Shown in pieces: positions 21,684 to 25,531 of a stretch of DNA of 64,000 bases. The notes beneath the pieces were generated by a model that was given only the letters and a program-made list of their open reading frames with translations, made no database searches and was not told where the DNA came from. Within the stretch, counting starts at the first letter, position 1; each line of letters starts with the position of its first letter. The stretch comes from Caulobacter zeae (GTDB taxonomy: Bacteria; Pseudomonadota; Alphaproteobacteria; Caulobacterales; Caulobacteraceae): NCBI RefSeq assembly GCF_002858925.1, contig NZ_PJRS01000009.1, forward strand, positions 1 through 64,000, given 5' to 3'. The position numbers were made by a program, and so were the translations under genes.

Positions 21684-22868
21684 TCAGCTCCACACATCCA
21701 GGTGGAACAGCTTGCGGTGTTCCTCGATGGCGAAGCGGTCGGTCATGCCGGCGATGTAGTCGCACACCACGCGAGCCCTTCCGGCTTGGTCGCGGTTCTG
21801 CGACTTGGCGAACCATTCCGAAGGCAGCACCTCGGGTTCGGCCAAGAACAGCGTGAACATCTCGGCCAGAATGCGGCGCGCCTGGCTGCGGGTGCGGTTC
21901 ACGCGCCAGTGGCGGTACATCCGGGCGTGCAGGAACTCGCGCAGGCGGGCCAGGTCTTCCAGCATGTCGGACGAGAACGACACCAGGGCGTGCGGCAGGG
22001 CCCGCACCTCGTCGGCCGAGGCGACGCCGGTGATCGCGGCGCGCTGCAGGGTCTCGCCCATCACGTCGTCGACCATGGCACCGATCATCCGGCGAACGGC
22101 TTCCAGGCGGGTGATGCGGGCGTCGAGTTCGGGACGCTCGCTGCGCACGGCCGCCAGGATCGGGCCGATCAGCGGCACGTCCATCAGTTCGTCCAGCGTG
22201 AAGAGCCCCGCCTCCACCCCGTCGTCGATGTCGTGGTTGTTGTAGGCGATGTCGTCCGACAAGGCCGCCACCTGCGCCTCGGCCGAAGCCCAGGTGTCGA
22301 GCTTGAGGCCGTATTCGCCGTCGTACTTGGAGATCGCCTTCCACGACGGCTGACCCAGCTTATGGATCACCGGGCCGTTGTGCTTGATGACCCCTTCCAA
22401 GGTCTCCCAGGTCAGGTTCAGGCCGACGAAGTCGGGATAGCGGTGTTCCAGCTCGGTCACGACCCGGAAGGTCTGGACGTTGTGGTCGAAGCCGCCGAAC
22501 TCCTTGGTCTGCAGCTCCAGCTCGTCCTCGCCGGCGTGGCCGAACGGCGGGTGGCCCAGGTCATGGGCCAGGGCGATGGTCTCGGCCAGGTCGGCGTCCA
22601 GCCCCAGGGCCGTGGCCAGCGAGCGGGCGATCTGGGCCACTTCCAGCGAGTGGGTCAGGCGGGTGCGGAACTGGTCGCCCTCGTGGGCGACGAAGACCTG
22701 GGTCTTTTCCTTCAGCCGGCGGAAGGCCGAGGTGTGGATGATGCGGTCGCGATCGCGGGCGAACGGGGTGCGGGTGCGGCTCTCGTCTTCCTGATAGCGC
22801 CGGCCGCGTGACTTGGCCGGATCTTCGGCGTAGGGGGCGCGGGGGACGGCGAACGGAGACGTCGACAT
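21684..22868 (-). CDS. dgt: dGTP triphosphohydrolase
   Basis: 394 residues. HD-domain motifs are [37 protein letters not shown] and [18 protein letters not shown]. The family splits dGTP into deoxyguanosine and triphosphate, and some members act as general dNTPases. An N-terminal [21 protein letters not shown]-like stretch (conserved substrate loop) supports the type. Divergent from erpA, with a 77-base gap. Confidence 0.93.
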
Positions 22869-22945
22869 GAGCGGCCTTTGCTGATCGCCCCTTTTCCCGG
22901 GGCGCGGTCGCCCTCATATATGCGATAGATCAAGTTTCCACAGCC

Positions 22946-23278
22946 ATGACCGACATCACCGTTACGCTTTCTTCCAACGCCGCCCGCCGCCTGCACGCCC
23001 TCTCGGAGGCCGAAGGTCGCGAAGTCATGCTCCGCGTCGCGGTCGACGGCGGCGGCTGCTCGGGCTTTCAGTACCGGTTCGACCTGGTCGAGGCCGCAGA
23101 AGCCGACGACCTGAAGATCGAGCGCGACGGCGCCTCGGCCCTGGTCGACGTCGTGTCGCTGGCCCTGCTCAAGGGTTCGGAGATCGATTTCGTCGACGAA
23201 CTGGCCGGCGCCGAGTTCCGGGTCAGGAACCCCAACGCCAAGTCCAGCTGCGGCTGCGGCGTCAGCTTCTCGATCTGA
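22946..23278 (+). CDS. erpA: A-type iron-sulfur cluster carrier/insertion protein
   Basis: 110 residues of the HesB/IscA fold. The three cluster-binding cysteines are visible in DGGGCSGFQY and in the C-terminal SSCGCGVSFSI. FVDELAGAEFRVRNPNAKSSCGC is the standard end. It passes Fe-S clusters to target apoproteins. It could be called IscA or ErpA; no isc or suf genes are nearby to decide. Divergent from dgt. Confidence 0.88.
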   Translation: MTDITVTLSSNAARRLHALSEAEGREVMLRVAVDGGGCSGFQYRFDLVEAAEADDLKIERDGASALVDVVSLALLKGSEIDFVDELAGAEFRVRNPNAKSSCGCGVSFSI

Positions 23279-23345
23279 CGCCCCTTCCCGCCCCTCTCAA
23301 GTTTATGGCGTGACACGCGCCAAACTAGGCTCTACGGTTCCCGCC

Positions 23346-23429
23346 ATGATCCTCGCCGCCAGCCAACAGCTGTTTTGGTACTTTAGCTATCCGACGCCTC
23401 TGGCGCCGGGAGGGGATCGTTTGGCCTGA
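23346..23429 (+). CDS. Aromatic-amino-acid leader peptide of the DAHP synthase gene
   Basis: 27 codons (ATG 23346 to TGA 23427-23429). The middle reads Phe-Trp-Tyr-Phe-Ser-Tyr at residues 10-15 (codons 23373-23390): five aromatic codons in six. It precedes a rho-independent terminator and the DAHP synthase gene that starts the shikimate pathway. A ribosome stalled there for lack of Phe, Trp or Tyr would expose the region 23396-23405, which can pair with the terminator's 5' arm. I chose the ATG because it gives a short frame ending before the terminator. No clear Shine-Dalgarno is visible. Confidence 0.85.
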   Translation: MILAASQQLFWYFSYPTPLAPGGDRLA

Positions 23430-23470
23430 GATCAGGCCGCCAAAAACGCCTTTCACCAGCCGCCAGGGGT
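23396..23470 (+). promoter_or_regulatory. Predicted attenuator antiterminator helix
   Basis: GCCTCTGGCG (23396-23405), just after the aromatic codons, can pair over 10 bases with CGCCAGGGGT (23461-23470), with two G-U wobbles. This would block the terminator's 5' arm. Between them GGCCTG (23423-23428) and CAGGCC (23433-23438) form a separate small hairpin around the leader stop codon. A ribosome reaching the stop codon would cover 23396-23405 and favour termination; one stalled at 23373-23390 would not. Confidence 0.75.
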
Positions 23471-23488
23471 TCCCCGGGCGGCTTTTTT
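23459..23488 (+). terminator. Attenuator terminator upstream of DAHP synthase
   Basis: GCCGCC (23459-23464) pairs with GGCGGC (23477-23482), with inner AGGGG/CCCCG extending the stem, directly followed by six Ts (23483-23488). It ends 38 bases before the aroG start, so it must be read through for expression. Confidence 0.9.
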
Positions 23489-23526
23489 GATGGCCGCCGG
23501 ACCCCGCGAATTTTCCGGAGCACGCC

Positions 23527-24624
23527 ATGCCATCCTCGACCGCCGCCAACCTCGTCTCGCTGCCCGTCCCCACCGACGACCTGCGCATCCAGAAACTCCA
23601 GACCCTCAGCCCGCCCGCCCAGGTGATCGGCGAAGCGCCGGCCACCTCGACGACGGCCGAGCTCGTCGAAGGCTCGCGTCAGGCCGTCCATGAGATCCTG
23701 CACGGCCGCGACGACCGCTTGGTGGTGGTGATCGGCCCCTGCTCGATCCACGACCCCAAGGCCGCCATCGACTACGCCAGCCGCCTGGCCGCCGAACGCG
23801 AGCGCCATGCCTGCGAGCTGGAAGTGATCATGCGCGTCTACTTCGAAAAGCCGCGCACGACGGTGGGCTGGAAGGGCCTGATCAACGACCCGGGCCTGGA
23901 CGGCGGCTTCCACATCAATGAAGGCCTGCGCCTGGCGCGCCGGGTGCTGCTCGACGTCTCCGCCCAGGGCCTGCCGGCGGCCTGCGAGTTCCTGGACGTC
24001 ACCACCCCGCAGTACATCGCCGACCTGGTGGCCTGGGGCGCGATCGGCGCCCGCACCACCGAAAGCCAGATCCACCGCGAGATGGCCTCGGGGCTGTCGT
24101 GCCCGGTCGGCTTCAAGAACGGCACCAACGGCGACGTGAAGGTCGCGGTCGACGCGGTCACCGCCGCCGCCCAGCCGCACCATTTCCTGGCCGTGACCAA
24201 GGAAGGCCGCGCCGCCATCGCCACCACCACCGGCAACGCCGACAGCCACGTGGTGCTGCGCGGCGGCAAGACCCCCAACTACGACGCCGCCAGCGTCGCG
24301 GCGGCGGCGCAGGCCCTGACCAAGGCCGGCCAGCCGCCGCGCCTGATGGTCGACGCCAGCCACGCCAACAGCGGCAAGAACCACGAGAACCAGCCGGCCG
24401 TGGTCGCCGACATCGCCGCCCAGGTGGCGACCGGAACCTCGCCGATCATGGGCGTGATGATCGAGAGCAACCTGGTGGCCGGCCGCCAGGACATCGTTCC
24501 CGGCCAGCCCCTGACCTACGGCCAATCGGTCACCGACGCCTGCGTCGACTGGGATACGTCGGTGCGCATGCTCGAAGACCTGGCGCAAGCCGTCCGCGCA
24601 GGTCGCCAGGCGCGCAAGGCTTAG
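23527..24624 (+). CDS. aroG: 3-deoxy-7-phosphoheptulonate (DAHP) synthase, class I alpha type
   Basis: First enzyme of the shikimate pathway: condenses phosphoenolpyruvate and erythrose 4-phosphate. The 365 residues match the AroF/G/H type. Motifs include VVVIGPCSIHDPKAAIDYA, MRVYFEKPRTTVGWKGLINDP, GARTTESQIHREMASGLSCPVGFKNGT and MVDASHANSGKNH (metal-binding His/Asp). It stands alone downstream of an aromatic leader peptide and terminator, so its expression is probably attenuated by aromatic amino acid supply. Feedback specificity (Phe, Tyr or Trp) cannot be read from the sequence. Confidence 0.95.
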   Translation: MPSSTAANLVSLPVPTDDLRIQKLQTLSPPAQVIGEAPATSTTAELVEGSRQAVHEILHGRDDRLVVVIGPCSIHDPKAAIDYASRLAAERERHACELEVIMRVYFEKPRTTVGWKGLINDPGLDGGFHINEGLRLARRVLLDVSAQGLPAACEFLDVTTPQYIADLVAWGAIGARTTESQIHREMASGLSCPVGFKNGTNGDVKVAVDAVTAAAQPHHFLAVTKEGRAAIATTTGNADSHVVLRGGKTPNYDAASVAAAAQALTKAGQPPRLMVDASHANSGKNHENQPAVVADIAAQVATGTSPIMGVMIESNLVAGRQDIVPGQPLTYGQSVTDACVDWDTSVRMLEDLAQAVRAGRQARKA

Positions 24625-24742
24625 GACGCCTGGACGGAGGGGCGCCCCAGGGGCGTCCCTCCCTATCCCCTGAAATCTCGCCTGCATGGCTTGAGCGCGC
24701 GGCCGCCGCCCCCTAGCCTCCGCCCGCCTATCGGAGCCCGCC

Positions 24743-25531
24743 ATGCGCATCGCCACCTGGAACGTCAATTCGGTCAACGCCCGCCTGGACAACGTCCTGG
24801 CCTGGTTCGAGGCCGAGGCGCCCGATGTCGCCGTGCTGCAGGAGATCAAGTGCGTCGACGAGAAGTTCCCGGCCGAGGCGTTCGAACGCCTCGGCTACAA
24901 CGTCGTCGTGCACGGCCAGAAGACCTACAACGGCGTGGCCCTGCTCTCGAAGCATCCGGTCGAGGACGTCCGCAAGGGCCTGCCCCTCCTGGAAGGCGAC
25001 GCCGAGGACGAGCAGGCGCGCTATGTCGAGGCGGTGATCTCGGGTCCCAAGCCGGTGCGGGTGATCGGCATCTACCTGCCCAACGGCAATCCGATCGGCA
25101 CCGAGAAGTTCGCCTACAAGCTGTCGTGGATGCGTCGCCTGCACGAGCACGCCAAGGGCTTGCTGGCCTTTGAAGAGCCCCTGGTCATAGCGGGCGACTA
25201 CAACGTCATCCCCGAGGTCGAGGACGTGGCCAATCCCGAAGCCTGGCTGGGCGACGCCCTGTTCCAGCCCGAGAGCCGAGCGGCCTTCCGGGCGCTCAAG
25301 AACCTGGGCTTCACCGACGCCTACATGCAAGCCGACGGAGCCCCCGGCGGCTACACCTTCTGGGACTATCAGGCCGGCGCCTGGCCGCGGAACCTGGGCA
25401 TCCGCATCGACCACCTGCTGCTGTCGCCCCAGGCGGCCGACAAGCTGGCCGAGGTGAAGATCCACCGCGACGAGCGCGACAAGGAAAAGCCGTCGGACCA
25501 CGTGCCGGTGGTGGCGACCCTGGCGCTGTAA
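24743..25531 (+). CDS. xth: Exodeoxyribonuclease III
   Basis: 262-residue EEP-fold AP endonuclease/3' exonuclease in base excision repair. Motifs are IATWNVNSVNARLDN, VLQEIKCVDEKFP, IYLPNGNPIGTEKF, IAGDYNVIPEVEDV, RIDHLLLSPQ and the C-terminal PSDHVPVVATL with the catalytic Asp-His. The MRIATWNVNSV start is the family N-terminus. It appears monocistronic, 119 bases after aroG. Confidence 0.95.
   Translation: MRIATWNVNSVNARLDNVLAWFEAEAPDVAVLQEIKCVDEKFPAEAFERLGYNVVVHGQKTYNGVALLSKHPVEDVRKGLPLLEGDAEDEQARYVEAVISGPKPVRVIGIYLPNGNPIGTEKFAYKLSWMRRLHEHAKGLLAFEEPLVIAGDYNVIPEVEDVANPEAWLGDALFQPESRAAFRALKNLGFTDAYMQADGAPGGYTFWDYQAGAWPRNLGIRIDHLLLSPQAADKLAEVKIHRDERDKEKPSDHVPVVATLAL

Follow-up and report, generated by a model that had tools for sequence, protein, structure and literature searches.

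The DNA analyzed here (the window) is a stretch of 64,000 nucleotides on contig C34 of Caulobacter zeae, whose genome measures 5.39 Mb. A short leader open reading frame (ORF) and a terminator occupy the gap between erpA and a type I DAHP synthase gene (Table 1). The first-pass annotation of this DNA had placed the leader before a DAHP synthase gene, and this was borne out by a family search in which the window gene was the only type I match in the whole genome; its product shares 98% identity with the type I DAHP synthase of Caulobacter radicis. The leader ORF, with five aromatic codons in six, has exactly the sequence and position originally read. The T-tailed terminator likewise lies where it had been placed, and the ten-base competing helix begins 5 bases past the last aromatic codon.

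Table 1. Features of the erpA-DAHP synthase interval in the window
Feature	Coordinates	Strand	Evidence or remark
erpA	22946-23278	+ (same direction as leader)	Ends 67 bases before leader ATG
Predicted -35 element, GTGACA	23310-23315	+	TGAC conserved upstream of leader ATG
Predicted -10 element, TACGGT	23333-23338	+	17 bases after -35; ends 7 bases before ATG
Leader ORF, 27 codons, MILAASQQLFWYFSYPTPLAPGGDRLA	23346-23429	+	ATG 23346, stop TGA 23427-23429
Segment 1, AUGAUCCUC, includes start codon	23346-23354	+	Pairs with 23412-23420 in fold of 23346-23420
Control codons TTT TGG TAC TTT AGC TAT (F W Y F S Y)	23373-23390	+	Five aromatic of six
Small hairpin, CCGACGCCUCUGGCGCCGG, able to hide segment 2	23391-23409	+	89.6% of cells paired
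Segment 2, 5' side of antiterminator	23396-23405	+	Pairs with 23461-23470 (helix 2:3); swap test
Partner of segment 1, GGGGAUCGU	23412-23420	+	Fold, swap test
Intrinsic terminator (3:4), six T	23459-23488	+	Fold, -20 kcal/mol
Segment 3, common to antiterminator and terminator	23461-23470	+	Fold, pair counts
Segment 4, 3' arm of terminator	23473-23482	+	Alignment, swap test
Segment 5, GCCGCCGG, complementary to segment 4	23493-23500	+	Beyond T-run; swap test z -6.0
Type I DAHP synthase (aroFGH family), 365 aa	23527-24624	+	TIGR00034, 525.5 bits vs cut-off 173.2

The terminator stem comprises six G-C pairs (23459-23464 with 23477-23482), an A.G mismatch and three more G-C pairs, and the T-run behind it covers T23483-23488, the first T of which also pairs with A23458 in the fold. 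The rival helix between segments 2 and 3 has ten pairs, two of them G-U. Folding of the leader RNA had been proposed as a check of the annotation; when it was carried out, 23388-23470 formed the antiterminator at -42.5 kcal/mol and beat 200 of 200 shuffles. The whole leader (23330-23495) was only moderately better than its shuffles (z -1.83, 9 of 200 equally good), and the terminator alone also scored moderately (z -1.68). A simple consensus scan of 22800-25000 reported no promoter and no terminator.

Of 249 Caulobacteraceae genomes, 64 carry the type I DAHP synthase gene. An aromatic-cluster leader ORF, followed by a terminator, precedes it at all 63 loci from which upstream DNA was taken; the 64th (G071) holds a partial gene and was left out. 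The comparison of relatives suggested in the first-pass annotation therefore favored its reading, as the aromatic codons are kept in 63/63 Caulobacteraceae and the paired segments co-evolve. With 47 leaders from other groups, these loci make up a set of 110 leaders, scored after selection for a downstream T-run, in which the hairpin starts 54-77 bases past the last aromatic codon. Conservation extends upstream of the ORF. Among 61 distinct upstream regions from Caulobacteraceae, 53 have a TGAC that begins 34-38 bases 5' of the leader ATG, against a control in which TGAC fell within -45 to -28 in 5.7% of shuffles, and in these 53 regions TA, belonging to the -10 element, is invariant 22 bases after TGAC. 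Several betaproteobacterial leaders carry TGTGCTAGGAT-like -10 elements (CTAGGAT-like) just before the ATG. From the position of these promoter elements, transcription is predicted to start at the ATG or within a base or two of it, and the leader mRNA is therefore predicted to be leaderless or nearly so.

The pairing of the segments was assessed by a swap test, in which the duplex energies of own and foreign segments were compared across 40 leaders (23 alphaproteobacterial and 17 others, pairwise similarity score below 0.75) with 20,000 permutations; one partner was reversed in the control, preserving composition. Permutation does not fully remove shared ancestry from these scores, in which own partners were favored for helix 1:2 (z -4.5, 0/20000; reversed control z -1.6), helix 2:3 (z -4.6, 0/20000; control z -0.7) and helix 4:5 (z -6.0, 0/20000; control z -1.3). 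The value for helix 3:4 (z -11.4; control z 1.4) is biased because the terminators had been chosen as hairpins. Counts per 20,000 in the alphaproteobacterial and remaining subsets were 44 and 11 for 1:2, 67 and 2 for 2:3, 0 and 0 for 3:4, and 3 and 9 for 4:5, with reversed controls that were not always flat (1:2 in Alphaproteobacteria, z -1.8; 2:3 outside them, z -1.7). Segments that are not neighbors in the relay gave z 0.0 (1:3), -1.0 (1:5) and 0.4 (2:5). Wider tests of helix 1:2 were weaker (z -2.9 in one; z -2.7 for all leaders and -0.8 for Alphaproteobacteria alone in another), the start-region version giving z -4.5.

Alignment A1 of the 40 leaders (mean column identity 60%) complements these results. 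Antiterminator cells are paired in 87.3% of cases (at most 59.6% in slid controls) and terminator cells in 93.1% (at most 54.8%), and the proportion for the small hairpin given in Table 1 compares with at most 60.6%. Three of the six pairs of the small hairpin have changed on both sides, a number to be set against up to 4 in slid controls. The outer antiterminator pair occurs as GC (12), CG (9), UG (3), GU (2), UA (2) or other combinations (8), with both sides changed in 14 sequences. Over the whole antiterminator, paired cells and covariation score lie above column shuffles, while double-change pairs (1) and pair types (7) in A1 do not exceed them (1.9 and 7.6). RNAalifold returned the terminator alone from A1, as expected because the two folds are mutually exclusive. 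The signal is uneven among single leaders: the own 2:3 duplex was not better than the mean foreign one in 14 of 40, and it beat all 50 segment-2 shuffles in only 10 of 40.

We interpret the element as a ribosome-mediated transcription attenuator, operating through a relay of paired segments in front of the type I DAHP synthase gene, and assign this reading a probability of about 0.88. Attenuation by ribosome stalling, the mechanism proposed by the annotation, has strong comparative support, since the leader codons are conserved and the paired segments co-evolve. The locus contains the parts of a trp- or phe-type attenuator: a short leader ORF with a run of end-product codons, an intrinsic terminator between that ORF and the structural gene, an antiterminator that uses the terminator's 5' arm and excludes the terminator (though 14 of 40 leaders, taken singly, show it weakly or not at all), and, as indicated by co-evolution, a protector helix 1:2 before the antiterminator. 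In the proposed sequence of events, transcription would begin at or next to the leader ATG, and the leader would be translated. A shortage of Phe-, Trp- or Tyr-tRNA would stall the leading ribosome in TTT TGG TAC TTT, and helix 1:2 could not form because the stalled ribosome would stand between segment 1 and its partner. Segment 2 would then pair with segment 3, blocking the terminator and allowing the type I gene to be transcribed. When the aromatic tRNAs are charged, the ribosome would reach the stop codon and cover the partner of segment 1, segment 2 would fold into its own small hairpin, and segment 3 would pair with segment 4, so that transcription would end at the T-run. Segment 4, left free in read-through RNA, would pair with segment 5, holding the RNA open.

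A simple masking model of the ribosome is consistent with this scheme. In all 110 leaders, a ribosome placed at the first aromatic codon lets upstream RNA hold half or more of the terminator 5' arm ahead of 3' arm synthesis; with the ribosome at the stop codon this happens in 1 of 110, and without a ribosome in 75 of 110. The 110/110 result is less striking because shuffled spacers often do likewise, reaching the same half-arm threshold in 935 of 1260 trials and in 576 of 940. In the window, stalls at F23373, W23376, Y23379 and F23382 leave the antiterminator free and Y23388 is borderline; when the stall is placed at the final aromatic codon, the leaders that pass number only 27 of 63 and 20 of 47. 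The finished terminator is more stable in every state computed, exceeding the open state by 6.9 kcal/mol in the stalled case of the window. As energy favors the terminator even when the ribosome is stalled, the switch would have to be decided during transcription.

Helix 4:5 departs from the usual design, and we know of no textbook attenuator that includes a helix beyond the terminator. A GC-rich complement of the terminator arm lies within 30 bases past the T-run at 50 of 63 Caulobacteraceae loci (294 of 3150 shuffles), and at only 10 of 47 loci outside the family (105 of 2350 shuffles). Because segment 5 lies beyond the T-run, it can have no share in the terminator decision and could act only in read-through RNA. 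The CCGGA of segment 5 (23497-23501) is also complementary to UCCGG in the Shine-Dalgarno region of the DAHP synthase gene (23514-23518). One alternative gives the element a dual output, in which segment 5 would hide the Shine-Dalgarno sequence unless captured by segment 4, so that translation would be switched as well. The co-evolution of segments 4 and 5 and the complementarity in the window are in keeping with this proposal, as is a weak swap signal between segment 5 and the Shine-Dalgarno region in Alphaproteobacteria (z -2.2, 319/20000, 15 leaders). Leaders from other groups show no such signal (z 0.2, 14 leaders), pooling all 29 gives z -2.1 (419/20000), and by the rule used 24 of 110 loci have no start with a recognizable Shine-Dalgarno sequence, leaving 11 of 40 representatives unused. 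On balance, we consider a dual output distinctly unlikely. The odds also run clearly against a broader proposal, which we offer tentatively. In it, type I DAHP synthase genes of Alpha-, Beta- and Gammaproteobacteria would be preceded by one family of five-segment attenuators, leaderless, with the start codon locked in helix 1:2 and with helix 4:5 latching the read-through RNA and, at least in Alphaproteobacteria, freeing the Shine-Dalgarno sequence. If this five-segment reading were true, a single stalled ribosome would switch transcription and translation together.

A natural frameshift bears on whether the leader is conserved as RNA or as peptide. Seven genomes (L126, L129, L135 and L137-L140) carry an additional T after the last Tyr codon, and their frame reads SDAAGGGR (SDALGGGR in L139) in place of PTPLAEEG. 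The bases themselves are retained, as CCGATGCCGCTGGCGGAGGAAGGGGATCGC identically in six of these genomes and as CCGACGCCCTGGGCGGAGGAAGGGGATCGC in L139, and the stop codon shifts from +36 to +48 or +51. The insertion thus alters the peptide yet keeps the RNA, which argues that PTPLA is conserved as antiterminator. This evidence weighs against nascent-peptide arrest, in which an FWYF(S/G)YPTPLA peptide would stall the ribosome on binding a free aromatic amino acid or another ligand, in the manner described for TnaC. Such arrest would lead one to expect a uniform peptide, and in Caulobacteraceae its uniformity is indeed striking, with PTPLA shared by most; however, the RNA remains nearly the same where the frame is shifted, L132 reads RPSAAAM, several betaproteobacterial leaders read FPKPLVEEG, and the distal half of the peptide follows the RNA. 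Peptide arrest is accordingly very improbable. We see a similarly slim chance that the terminated leader RNA or its peptide acts mainly elsewhere in the cell, like rnTrpL/peTrpL of Sinorhizobium: the predicted leaderless small mRNA has the layout described for rnTrpL (PMC7298713), but the insertion genomes do not preserve the distal half of the peptide as protein, and action in trans would in any case be compatible with attenuation in cis.

To follow the attenuator beyond Caulobacteraceae, a covariance model (R1) was built from 40 leaders, the window leader among them. It gives one strong match in the genome of the window, at this locus (E 1.5e-15), the next standing at E 0.77. Named relatives were the best 80 matches of one bacterial genome scan, or 73 after seven same-genome duplicates (L002-L007 and L011) were dropped; four doubtful loci (L028, L064, L066 and L070) are counted among the 73 relatives and stand outside the 110 leaders. 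R1 matches upstream of the gene in 54 of the 73, within about 165 bases in 53 of them, and still matches 30 of 49 relatives when the 24 named loci used for building are set aside. Matched relatives include Devosia, Kaistia, Methylosinus, Rhizobium, Bordetella, Pusillimonas, Massilia, Pseudoxanthomonas and Rhodanobacter, and the 19 of 73 in which R1 found no match include Methylophaga, SAR86 and L038, where the upstream DNA is masked. Of the 80 named loci, 22 escaped the ORF rule, which asked for four aromatic codons within seven and a T-run after them; R1 recovered 5 of these 22 and two of the four doubtful loci, the L070 element lying about 470 bases from the gene match. Weak R1 matches at L018, L031 and L070 lie on the opposite strand across the true element, and those in G260, G322, G627, G883 and G000:C38 look like chance terminators. 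L022, recorded as Mycobacterium sp. KBS0706 and grouped with Alphaproteobacteria in our counts, has a leader and a DAHP synthase resembling alphaproteobacterial ones and is possibly mislabelled.

Genome samples, which may overlap the genomes used to build R1, gave a close association of element and gene in Alphaproteobacteria. Among 387 alphaproteobacterial genomes, a type I gene exceeds the family cut-off in 18, and R1 matches the same 18, with three weak matches elsewhere. The match lies within about 155 bases upstream of the gene on the same contig in 17 of them; in the 18th (G403) it lies at a contig edge and the gene near the start of another contig. In a second sample, of 397 Pseudomonadota genomes, the 26 Alphaproteobacteria with the gene are the same 26 with an R1 match (position checked for 9). 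As both are present in 18/18 and 26/26 genomes, the switch and the type I gene look like one inherited unit. The non-alphaproteobacterial genomes with a type I gene in the Pseudomonadota sample have an R1 match in 38 of 194 cases. Six of these are Phe_leader loci, and once they and G883 are removed, at least 24 of the remaining 31 lie just upstream of a listed gene; one further match (G782) was confirmed through its downstream protein. That the hairpin is simply the ordinary terminator of erpA, which ends 67 bases before the leader ATG in the same direction, with an accidental aromatic ORF, is scarcely credible given that 63 Caulobacteraceae loci, as well as beta- and gammaproteobacterial relatives, retain the leader codons, their spacing and the helices, that the element accompanies the DAHP synthase gene in 18/18 alphaproteobacterial genomes, and that a promoter is predicted between erpA and the leader.

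Codon choice within the leaders indicates what the attenuator could sense. The annotation had suggested tuning to all three aromatic amino acids at once, and this holds for the codons, TGG being retained alongside Phe and Tyr codons in 63 of 63 Caulobacteraceae leaders, and for the stall geometry; it does not carry over to beta- and Rhizobium-type leaders, which often have no Trp codon. Many betaproteobacterial leaders contain Phe and Tyr codons only, and Rhizobium-type leaders (L010, L025, L030, L033, L039 and L045) read RFYSYRC, with Phe and Tyr and without a Trp codon, which points to a set of sensed amino acids that varies by lineage. Although these genomes are GC-rich, the control codons are mostly TTT and TAT. 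The 63 Caulobacteraceae leaders contain TTT 123 and TTC 4 times, and TAT 115 and TAC 26 times, whereas genes of the window prefer TTC and TAC (TTT 3, TTC 80, TAT 13 and TAC 70 in eight genes). Counts in the 47 leaders outside the family are TTT 126, TTC 33, TAT 66 and TAC 35. Slow decoding, absence of structure or a U-rich signal may underlie this preference.

The principle of such control is textbook, with precedents in aroR-aroF of Corynebacterium glutamicum and pheL-pheA of Escherichia coli; the novelty here lies in the leader family and how widely it occurs, and in the two helices at the start codon and past the terminator. Rfam family RF01859 (Phe_leader), which represents the pheL-pheA and pheM-pheST attenuators of enterobacteria, has no match at E 1 or better in 22500-24500 and none at gathering score in 12 relatives. 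A search of Rfam 15 for a T-box or amino acid riboswitch likewise found none in 22500-24500, where the only match with E of 1 or less was to a microRNA family (E 0.27, below gathering score), and no fitting match at gathering score in the 12 relatives. Like the Caulobacter leader, the pheL-pheA and pheM-pheST leaders have aromatic codons, followed at once by an antiterminator segment, and a GC-rich terminator; unlike it, they precede other genes. R1 weakly matches Phe_leader-type loci, and the six of the 38 non-alphaproteobacterial matches that reach the RF01859 gathering score are L225-L229 and L232. A scan for the gene behind the leader at four of these gammaproteobacterial loci identified pheA at two (L225 and L232) and pheS at the other two (L226 and L227). 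This weak recognition of pheA and pheS leaders may reflect common descent or convergence.

An attenuator at aroR-aroF of C. glutamicum was reportedly described by Neshat et al. in 2014. According to the available passages on this system, it is an established attenuator with a Phe-Tyr-Phe leader, and transcription rises under Phe limitation (PMC11802643, PMC4046766). Compared by description, it resembles the Caulobacter element in placing an aromatic leader peptide before a DAHP synthase gene; it differs in belonging to an actinobacterium, and those passages report no Trp codon and describe Tyr as without effect. Another relevant system is trpLE(G)/rnTrpL of Sinorhizobium meliloti, described as a ribosome-mediated attenuator on a leaderless leader mRNA (PMC7298713, PMC10117765). 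It shares with Caulobacter an alphaproteobacterial host and a leaderless leader, the Caulobacter start being predicted rather than mapped, and is distinguished by its Trp codons and its gene, trpE(G). Attenuation of proteobacterial DAHP synthase genes has also been predicted elsewhere: two Vibrio species are listed with a putative attenuator ahead of aroA(I-alpha)-tyrA (PMC1173090, Table 7), and Shewanella aroF is listed with predicted regulatory RNA or attenuation (PMC2659441). These cases were compared with Caulobacter by description rather than sequence, and the descriptions available include no leader peptide. A Caulobacter genome map places leader coding sequences before trpS and ilv genes and, in its available sections, mentions none for DAHP synthase (PMC4117421). 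Our search of one open-access library found no report of this attenuator in Caulobacterales.

The genome also encodes a class II DAHP synthase (G000:C41:50810-52126, L111). R1 has no match at this gene, and the 300 bases upstream of it contain no comparable run of aromatic codons; an upstream ORF with FGVWQEWW is probably the end of the preceding gene. The annotation's further suggestion that the first shikimate step as a whole is under this control was therefore overstated: because the class II enzyme has no such leader, the switch governs one isozyme rather than the whole step. We infer that class II is the standing enzyme and type I an extra one that would be switched on by shortage. An accessory type I DAHP synthase, beside its near-universal class II counterpart, would in this way gain its own sensor of aromatic tRNA shortage. 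Of 169 Caulobacteraceae genomes, 168 have a class II gene, among them all 40 that also have a type I gene, and the C. vibrioides control genome has both types. Class II is thus near universal in the family, and type I is patchy (64/249).
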